From Pseudophaeomoniella oleicola (Eukaryota; Ascomycota; Eurotiomycetes; Phaeomoniellales; Phaeomoniellaceae), in the NCBI GenBank assembly GCA_003868215.1, contig QWDQ01000008.1, positions 124,001 to 188,000 on the forward strand: 64,000 nt of DNA. The letters run 5' to 3'. This document shows, in pieces, positions 954 through 42,423 of this stretch. The translations under genes were made by a program, and so were the position numbers. The notes under the pieces are model-generated. The model did not search any database, was not told the origin of the DNA, and worked only from the letters and a program-made list of their open reading frames with translations. How positions within the stretch are numbered: position 1 is the stretch's first letter; every line of letters starts with the position of its first letter.

Positions 954-2023
954 ATGCCCTTGGTGGAGTATCCAGACTCCAGTTCCGACGATGAGCCTCA
1001 AAGGCGGACGAACCCGACAACAACGGTGACTAAGAGAAGAAAGCTCAATACAAAGAAACATGACAATACCACAGCCTCGCCGCCTCCGTTGCCGGCAACT
1101 TTTCTCGATCTGTATGCAACGAACGTGAGGGCGAGTACTGCGGATGATCCGGCGTTACACAGCGGACGGAAGCGGATAACACCTCATGTCGAAGGCAACT
1201 GGCCAACGCATGTCTATTTGGAGTGTATGCTGTCCTTGAAGCTCTTCCAACCCTTTACGGTGGACTGACATGATGAGGGTGGCCGAACTTCGCAGAAAGG
1301 AAGAGGTTACAGCAGATAATCGCCCAAGTCAAAGCCAATGTGCCATCAAGCTGTGTAATACACAGTCATTTGAACAGTGATCTCGGGGGCCCACTGCCCC
1401 TCCACATCAGTCTCTCGAGACCACTCGTGCTGGCTACCGAGAAGAAAGACGTTTTTGCAGAACATCTCTCTCAAGCAATCACCGATCTCAAACTAAAACC
1501 GTACGGCTGACCCTCTCTCTCCATCTCTCTCTTCGCCAGTAATCTGTACTAAACTAAAACGTCCCGCAGTTTCCATGTACAGTCCGCAAACCTGGATTGG
1601 GCGTCTAACTGTGAAAAGACACGTTGGTTTCTTGTCCTGAGGCTCAAACGACCCAGCAACGATGAACTAAGCCGTCTCCTCGTCACGGCCAATGAAGTCG
1701 CAGCCCGTTTTCAGCAACCGGGCCTCTACACCGAATCAATCCTCGACCAGAAGGAGAAATCCCCCAGACCATCAAGACCGTCTGTTAAACCCCACGACTT
1801 CTCCTCCAGTCTCCACATCAGCATCGCCTGGACAATCACCATGCCACAAGAAAAAATCGACGGCAACGATCTCCTAGTGGCTGTCGATGATGCTGTGCTA
1901 TCACAGTCAATGTTCAATATAGCATTTGACAGTGTCAAAATCAAAATAGGCAACAGCATCATCAACATCGCGTTGAGAAACACTCTATCGCAGACAGATG
2001 ATGCTGGATTTGGGGGTAGATAG
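954..2023 (+). CDS. usb1: U6 snRNA 3'-5' phosphodiesterase Usb1 (3 exons)
   Basis: Usb1 is a 2H-phosphoesterase that trims and seals the oligo-U tail of U6 snRNA. I assemble exons 954-1224, 1278-1500 and 1570-2023 (315 residues). The first intron (donor GTATGC, CTGAC branch just before the acceptor) splits a Trp codon and gives the family sequence HVYLEW. The second (donor GTACGG, acceptor CGCAG) splits a Pro codon. Both catalytic HxS motifs are present: HIS within [10 protein letters not shown] in exon 2 and HIS within SSLHISIAW in exon 3. The N-terminus is the acidic/Ser-rich leader (SSSDDE) followed by [10 protein letters not shown], usual in fungal Usb1. Family assignment is firm; the exact acceptor of intron 1 was chosen from reading frame and motif. 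Confidence 0.88.
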
Positions 2024-41760: not shown

Positions 41761-42237
41761 TTCGGTACTTTCGGTTTGCATTTGCATCACCCTTGCAATT
41801 TCATGTGTACCTGGTGGAACGGATCCTTTGCCCTTAGGGAGGACATCTGAGCCTCATGATTTGGTGTTTCCAAAATGTCATATAACACAGGAAAAGGCAA
41901 GCAAAGAGAGCCCAAAAAAAAAGAGAAGGAATTGGAGTCTTTATACCAATTGTACATACGTACCTGCCTCATGCAGCGTATCACTTCTCTGTGTACCCGA
42001 TTATATGCTAAGAATGGTCGCCTCCCCCTTTTTTTTCCCTCATCAGCTCTCTCACTCACTCACTCCATCCATCCAGCCTTTCCTCCACCGTCTATAATTG
42101 TCCTGGCGCGCGCCTAAGTCCGCCCTGTCCGTGCCCCACCACCACCTTTGAGCACCTGCCCCGCCCACACCAAAAAAGAATAATTACGTATATATTTTCC
42201 GGGACGCAAACCCCCTGCAACAAATTACAGGCGACTT
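41761..42237. other. Intergenic, 5' flank of tRNA-Lys
   Basis: No protein gene. Homopurine and homopyrimidine stretches occur near 41910 and 42030. A TATA-like box at 42189-42198 precedes the tRNA. Confidence 0.5.
42189..42198 (+). promoter_or_regulatory. TATA-like element upstream of tRNA-Lys
   Basis: TATATATTTT lies about 40-50 nt before the tRNA 5' end, the place where upstream TATA boxes assist TFIIIB in some fungi. Functional role is a guess. Confidence 0.3.
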
Positions 42238-42376
42238 GCCGGGGTGGCTCAATCGGTAGAGCGTGTGGCTCTTATAAGTTGCTTATTACCTCAAGGTTGC
42301 GGGTTCGAGTCCCGGTGAGTTTAGATGTTAGTCTCAAGATCAAACAATTTGCTAATGTTTCAATCAGCCTTCGGCT
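42238..42376 (+). tRNA. tRNA-Lys(CUU) with an anticodon-loop intron and an extra 53-nt T-stem insertion
   Basis: Without the insertions the tRNA is complete. The acceptor GCCGGGG pairs with CTTCGGC (two G-U), with discriminator T as in yeast tRNA-Lys(CUU). The D-arm is GCTC/GAGC with AATCGGTA. The anticodon loop is CT-CTT-A (anticodon 42271-42273), the variable loop AGGTT, and the T-stem GCGGG/CCCG+C around TTCGAGT. The ordinary intron is about 42275-42287. The anticodon stem TGTGG/CCTCA has one T-T mismatch. The second insertion, 42315-42367, splits the 3' strand of the T-stem between positions 64 and 65; without its removal neither the T-stem nor the acceptor can close. A-box (42245-42256) and B-box (42302-42312) are intact. 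A T9 run at 42415 may terminate transcription. Confidence 0.85.
42315..42367 (+). other. Spliceosome-type intron inside tRNA-Lys (T-stem)
   Basis: The 53-nt insertion has a consensus GTGAGT donor, the branch motif TGCTAAT at 42350-42356, and ends AATCAG, 12 nt after the branch A. Size, donor, branch and spacing match mRNA introns in this window. Its sequence is not similar to the tRNA-Leu insertion outside these signals. Confidence 0.75.
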
Positions 42377-42414: not shown

Positions 42415-42423
42415 TTTTTTTTT
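42415..42423 (+). terminator. Pol III T-run terminator after tRNA-Lys
   Basis: Nine T residues, 38 nt after the reconstructed 3' end. The primary transcript would then have a longer than usual 3' trailer. Confidence 0.5.

Follow-up and report, generated by a model that had tools for sequence, protein, structure and literature searches.

A tRNA-Lys(CUU) gene of Pseudophaeomoniella oleicola is interrupted in its T stem by a 53-nt segment that, judged from its sequence, is very likely a U2-type spliceosomal intron gained in a gene transcribed by RNA polymerase III (Pol III); at least five segments of this type, this one included, interrupt nuclear tRNA genes of the genome, and another interrupts its U6 snRNA gene. 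With somewhat less assurance, we regard it as likely that the spliceosome would be obligatory in tRNA maturation here: the apparently single-copy, essential Arg-ACG and Lys-UUU tRNAs, and U6 itself, would need it, and several pre-tRNAs would be processed by two splicing machines unrelated to each other, introns having been gained repeatedly in Pol III genes. These findings suggest that the mRNA-splicing machine also splices tRNAs in this species. The window, that is, the whole 64-kb stretch of DNA that was analysed, corresponds to bases 124001-188000 of contig C91 in a single assembly of 26.1 Mb and 112 contigs. The gene and its surroundings contain the following features, in window coordinates:

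42189-42196, plus strand: TATA-like element with TATAWW starts at -49 and -47; the -47 TATA is also present in the uninterrupted paralogue
42238-42314, plus strand: tRNA-Lys(CUU) exon 1, up to position 64 and including the 13-nt intron; 77 of 77 bases as in the paralogue
42271-42273, plus strand: anticodon CTT (CUU), from structural segmentation
42275-42287, plus strand: ordinary 13-nt intron after position 37, from segmentation and from ARAGORN on the paralogue
42302-42312 (C91:166302-166312), plus strand: B box GGTTCGAGTCC, from the B-box pattern search
42315-42367, plus strand: putative 53-nt spliceosomal-type intron at tRNA positions 64/65, from its absence in the paralogue, its signals and the fold
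42350-42356, plus strand: branch motif TGCTAAT; the branch A is predicted at 42355, 12 nt from the 3′ end of the intron
42368-42376, plus strand: tRNA exon 2 CCTTCGGCT, comprising C65, the acceptor strand CTTCGGC and discriminator T; the same in the paralogue
42415-42423, plus strand: run of nine T, likely the Pol III terminator, 38 nt 3′ of the gene

The tRNA-Lys(CUU) gene at 42238-42376 therefore carries two inserts, the 13-nt intron in the anticodon loop and the 53-nt segment between T-stem positions 64 and 65, which has the form GTGAGT..TGCTAAT..CAG (its 3′ sequence ends in ATCAG). A preliminary description of this DNA had reported the same gene and the same segment, and its observation was borne out letter for letter, including the GTGAGT start, the TGCTAAT located 12 nt before the end, the terminal CAG, a branch at 42355 that fits the motif at 42350-42356, and the additional canonical anticodon-loop intron. 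The claim that removal of the segment restores a T-stem pair, a seven-pair acceptor stem and the discriminator T agrees with the structural segmentation, in which the gene without the 53 nt forms seven acceptor, four D, four of five anticodon (with a U29-U41 mismatch) and five T pairs. Two of 360 trial excisions at the window gene reach this score, the two being offset by a single base across the same G. A high-scoring fold of the intact gene, which the description had named as evidence against its reading, was not found: the unspliced gene matches the Rfam tRNA model over model positions 8-63 only, with 25.1 bits against a cut-off of 29. There was no gathering-score Rfam match anywhere in the 64-kb window, and ARAGORN called nothing in the window or in the locus of this gene (L001). 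Since both ARAGORN and the Rfam cut-off miss the window gene, the trait may be overlooked in other genomes. The full intron signal, defined as a GTNNGN start, a [CT]T[AG]A[CT] branch motif whose A precedes the end by 12-13 nt, a YAG end and a length of 40-109 nt, has a background in the window of 47 out of 8,944,600 start/length pairs (5.25e-6). A frame-based list of mRNA introns in the window comprised 132 clusters and was too noisy for use.

A second copy of tRNA-Lys(CUU), located 72 kb away (C91:238812-238898, minus strand, which is 1491-1577, minus strand, of locus L002; 53.8 bits in Rfam), is the same at 86 of 86 non-insert bases and is without exactly the 53 nt. A genome search with the whole stretch as query found one other place, C91:238822-238898 on the minus strand, with 100% identity over query bases 1-77; this match ends exactly at the proposed donor, and the paralogue then runs straight into CCTTCGGCT. 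With the paralogue as query, the search returned the paralogue itself from end to end and the window copy over the first 77 bases, and there was no third Lys(CUU) match genome-wide at E<=10. Because the paralogue is otherwise identical and is without exactly those bases, the 53-nt segment is a precise insertion; it is exact within a one-base shift, with a possible target duplication of at most one base. Since the paralogue independently defines where the insert starts and stops, to within one base, the intron signal at this gene is unlikely to be a product of chance. The U29-U41 mismatch is present in the paralogue too and is therefore no sign of decay, and ARAGORN places the paralogue's 13-nt intron one base later than the position given above for the window gene. 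The 5′ flanks of the two copies share the TATA-like block and about a dozen gene-adjacent bases and otherwise align poorly, and some likeness persists just 3′ of the gene; the gene is kept identical by selection or gene conversion, and its surroundings have diverged. Both copies have long trailers, with the first run of five or more T lying 38 and 47 nt past the called gene end, a distance that ranges from 0 to 35 nt among the remaining 34 uninterrupted nuclear genes.

The genome was then scanned for further interrupted tRNA genes. The tRNA-like loci were gathered using Rfam (46 matches, with 63 of 781 candidates scored) and three B-box patterns, which gave 65, 34 and 51 sites compared to 48, 41 and 44 for the reversed-pattern controls, and all nuclear B-box sites were scanned except three chance-looking sites inside the window. 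Each segment bounded by intron signals was cut out in turn, and ARAGORN was run on the remainder. A first scan of 121 loci and 2544 excisions gave 18 rows, five of which belonged to four nuclear genes; the other 13 were discarded, 12 as mitochondrial tRNA clusters and one as the edge of an intact gene (L049), while reversed sequences gave no rows from 3177 excisions. A broad scan that dropped the branch requirement, covering 153 loci and 43,512 GT..AG excisions, yielded ARAGORN calls in 31 loci and was the first to pick up L149; among the matches listed, the calls beyond the five genes fell on fragments or on intact genes in which an edge had been replaced. In the final scan, 180 excisions were made across 149 nuclear loci, 37 of which had an ordinary call, with the branch A placed as in the known cases; five loci matched with one excision apiece. 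Their candidate introns, given with length, donor, branch motif, acceptor, distance of the branch A from the intron end, and tRNA position, are:

Lys-CUU, window gene on C91 (L001): 53 nt, GTGAGT, TGCTAAT, CAG, 12 nt, position 64/65
Lys-UUU, C85 (L079): 60 nt, GTATGT, TATTAAC, TAG, 12 nt, position 19/20
Gln-CUG, C61 (L071): 60 nt, GTACGT, TACTAAC, CAG, 13 nt, position 23/24
Arg-ACG, C29 (L109): 51 nt, GTAAGT, TACTAAC, TAG, 12 nt, position 32/33
Val-AAC, C21 (L149): 57 nt, GTCAGT, TGCTAAC, TAG, 12 nt, position 17/18

For the Arg gene, unaided ARAGORN returned Arg(acg) with an intron that is exactly the 51-nt segment. The unaided call at the Lys-UUU locus, Arg(ccg), is a wrong label, and L149 was labelled Tyr in the final scan and is read as Val-AAC by segmentation. 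When the signals were altered, no loci matched with TG for AG, with a scrambled branch or with the complement; CA for GT matched one locus, inside that of the Gln gene, and the reversed signal matched three, namely a trimmed intact Met gene, L075 and a fragment of L079. The nuclear genes found number forty, five of them interrupted, in a census that is incomplete and in which several expected tRNAs (for example Phe, Tyr, Trp and Asp) were not found. For a genome of 26 Mb this is a small number of nuclear tRNA genes, and an ordinary intron is present in most of the 35 uninterrupted ones; the incomplete search may partly explain both observations. Outside this count lies L043 (about 1490-1653, minus strand; C21, near 299900), which has acceptor, D and T arms and a T run, is without a normal anticodon arm, and is called by ARAGORN as Sec with an 88-nt intron; it is either a dead or an oddly interrupted tRNA. 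We did not count it as a sixth case; by eye, no GT..AG solution was found. A further candidate, L144, was judged by eye to be due to chance, with an internal T run and its acceptor partner missing, and L096, called Lys(ttt) by ARAGORN and considered as a second Lys-UUU gene, fits structurally as Ile(UAU), its 40-nt intron lying in the usual position.

The intron positions, which were numbered by hand on the structural segmentations, fall in the D arm, the anticodon loop and the T stem, and none of the five spliceosomal-type introns is at the canonical position 37/38. An ordinary anticodon-loop intron is also present in Lys-CUU (13 nt), Gln-CUG and Val-AAC (16 nt). Precise joining of the window exons reproduces the paralogue base for base, and the other four genes regain cloverleafs, as judged from structure alone. 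In the order Lys-CUU, Lys-UUU, Gln, Arg and Val, the spliced forms have 7, 6, 7, 7 and 7 acceptor pairs, 4, 3, 3, 3 and 3 D pairs, 4, 5, 5, 5 and 5 anticodon pairs, and five T pairs each. In the same order, 2, 13, 7, 3 and 29 of 360 excisions score at least as high as the GT..AG one, and in Lys-UUU, Gln and Val some alternative excisions are 1-2 points above it in this simple fold score. Among those 54 excisions, about 3e-4 chance matches to the signal are expected (at the rate of 5.25e-6) and one was seen per gene, an estimate that is not independent for the four genes that were themselves picked by signal, the ends in Lys-CUU being fixed by the paralogue. The longest T runs within the introns are 3, 3, 4, 2 and 2, with TTTT in the Gln intron and no T5 inside any. 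Avoidance of T runs was considered as a sign of Pol III transcription and set aside, since it offers no contrast: the window's 10 strong intron-like segments are also without TTTT.

The U6 gene presents a similar picture. For U6, an RNA that splicing itself requires, a single gene exceeded the cut-off (47 of 1565 candidates scored), and it is interrupted (L098 1501-1656, minus strand; C32:203080-203235), with 56 bases of the form GTTTGG..TGCTAAT..TAG inserted after ACAGAGAAGATTAG, and it ends in a T run. Together with the five tRNA introns, this makes six introns of 51-60 nt, each with a single branch motif whose A is 12-13 nt from the end. A CTRAY-like branch motif is found in 6/6, that of Lys(UUU), TATTAAC, being read as TTAAC; the donors are near GTRNGT with GT..AG ends, and GTCAGT (Val) and GTTTGG (U6) depart from it. 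In the SRP RNA gene (298 bases compared to a model of 293 positions), a comparable insert was not seen. The spliceosomal-type reading first proposed for the window gene is thus supported by the paralogue, by four more tRNA genes and by U6, and what was first seen in one gene becomes a trait of the genome.

The interrupted genes have the sequence features of working genes, namely a cloverleaf, promoter boxes and a T run, with the A box of Val interrupted by its intron. In the window gene, both the A box and the B box are intact within exon 1; by the usual box positions, four of the introns spare both promoter boxes and the Val intron cuts the A box. A TATA element 75-20 nt upstream is present in 5/5 interrupted genes, in 32/35 uninterrupted nuclear genes and in 13% of 20,000 random window segments, and a run of at least five T within 80 nt downstream follows 5/5 interrupted and 35/35 uninterrupted nuclear genes. 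BLAST at E<=10 found no further copy of Lys(UUU), Gln(CUG) or Arg(ACG), a search that a strongly diverged copy could escape, and Val-AAC has an uninterrupted copy (L014). Because BLAST gave no second copy of Arg(ACG), Lys(UUU) or Gln(CUG), splicing of these three is probably obligatory. Lys(UUU) and Arg(ACG) are presumably essential as well, since their codons, under the wobble rules, should not be decoded by CUU or by the remaining Arg anticodons found.

In the maturation pathway that we propose, Pol III would use the internal promoter boxes to transcribe the window gene as far as the T run, and the spliceosome would then take out the 53-nt intron in the nucleus, restoring the T stem and the acceptor stem. 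The transcript ends would next be trimmed, and the tRNA endonuclease and ligase would finally take out the 13-nt anticodon-loop intron; this order is itself conjectural. We infer the spliceosome as the remover of the 53-nt and related segments from the signals that they carry. As for their origin, the most likely route is that an excised intron was reverse-spliced into a small RNA, which would have been followed by reverse transcription and recombination.

The main alternative is that the window copy is a tRNA pseudogene, whose intron-like insert stays unspliced while the paralogue alone supplies tRNA-Lys(CUU). The existence of an uninterrupted copy means that the window copy alone could be dispensable, and a recent insertion would likewise leave the exons identical. 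However, the window gene has no decayed exons, with 86/86 bases as in the paralogue, and this identity of exons and anticodon-loop intron is kept while the 5′ flanks align poorly. The window gene has also retained its TATA and T run, and a like anatomy is seen in U6 and in three tRNA genes that gave no second match of their kind, those for Lys(UUU), Gln(CUG) and Arg(ACG). The possibility of chance motifs in a dead tRNA is likewise disfavoured: the two boundaries of the insert are set by the paralogue, and U6 and four other tRNA genes show the pattern again. We therefore consider a pseudogene improbable.

Two further explanations were weighed. Removal by the tRNA splicing endonuclease at unusual positions, with accidental splice motifs, would have a parallel in the ectopic introns of red algae and nucleomorphs, which are known to be so removed in Cyanidioschyzon and in nucleomorphs according to the parts of two sources consulted (PMC3978253, PMC4090602). 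Yet donor, branch and acceptor signals are in register in 5/5 of the introns described here, and the central four-pair helix of a bulge-helix-bulge was found in 0/5 (1, 1, 2, 2 and 3 of 4 pairs, in a comparison that had no ordinary-intron positive control), which makes this explanation very unlikely. We give as little credence to the possibility that a mobile introner-like element is now spreading and has left the segments as its copies, which could be suggested by several introns of similar length in unrelated small-RNA genes. The many near-identical copies that mark such an element were not found in the genome search, which covered the introns other than those of Val and U6: the window intron has no other genome match, and thus no donor intron elsewhere, at E<=10, and whole-gene queries of Lys(UUU), Gln(CUG) and Arg(ACG) match only themselves. 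Moreover, the six introns are mutually unlike (15 pairs, z -1.9 to 2.2), and any duplication of the target at the window insertion would span one base at most. Repeated gain of U2-type spliceosomal introns remains the reading that we prefer.

Published descriptions assign nuclear tRNA splicing to the tRNA endonuclease and a ligase. Ordinary nuclear tRNA introns, which the endonuclease cuts, occupy a single place, 37/38 after the anticodon, and are without splice-site consensus, in contrast to the introns described here. Spliceosomal-type introns in genes other than those for mRNAs have several precedents. U6 is located in the active site of the spliceosome, which explains its intron insertion, and mRNA-type introns occur in the nuclear ribosomal DNA of ascomycetes, lichen fungi included, for which reverse splicing has been proposed; the latter are likewise a spliceosomal-type gain in a non-mRNA gene, but they differ in that they lie in Pol I rRNA genes. 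The preliminary description had pointed to the mRNA-type intron of fission yeast U6 as the nearest precedent, and it is indeed among the closest systems, with the U6 gene of this genome found to have an intron of its own. As described in the part of the source consulted, the U6 introns of fission yeast and other fungi are short GT..AG introns with a branch motif that are thought to originate by reverse splicing (PMC10484740). U6 resembles the present cases as a small structured Pol III RNA with a short GT..AG intron and a branch motif, whereas tRNAs are another class of RNA with a splicing pathway of their own. In fungal U3 snoRNA, the introns are GT..AG with a conserved branch motif and a short branch-to-acceptor distance, and the 2017 paper that describes them names U3 and U6 as the only small structured RNAs in which frequent interruption is known (PMC5832005). 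The U3 introns resemble those found here in these respects, although U3 is not a tRNA.

The ectopic tRNA introns of Cyanidioschyzon, nucleomorphs and archaea, like the introns reported here, interrupt the D and T arms of tRNAs. The sections consulted of two sources describe the introns of algae, nucleomorphs and archaea as endonuclease substrates via bulge-helix-bulge-like structures, and these sections make no mention of the GT..AG and branch signals that are present in the introns here (PMC3978253, PMC4090602). The main text of a 2014 review on tRNA introns contains no word starting with "spliceosom" (PMC4090602). In line with the earlier suggestion that a spliceosomal intron in a nuclear tRNA gene is undescribed, we found no report of one in the open-licence full-text literature, among the matches listed and judged by title and start of abstract, and prior work elsewhere is possible. 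If our reading is true, tRNA supply would be tied to the spliceosome, and the spliceosome would prove able to process Pol III transcripts that are short and tightly folded. The two Lys-CUU genes would also offer a clean before-and-after case for intron gain, outside protein genes and U6.

Near the window gene, we also observed a single-exon protein whose similarities point to an ascomycete close to Chaetothyriomycetidae: identity is 33-43% to its best named database relatives, from Endocarpon, Pyrenula, Cladophialophora, Fonsecaea, Capronia, Exophiala and kin, and 54-60% to four further relatives, among the best 120 of 176 matches, with the 8000 best candidates scored.
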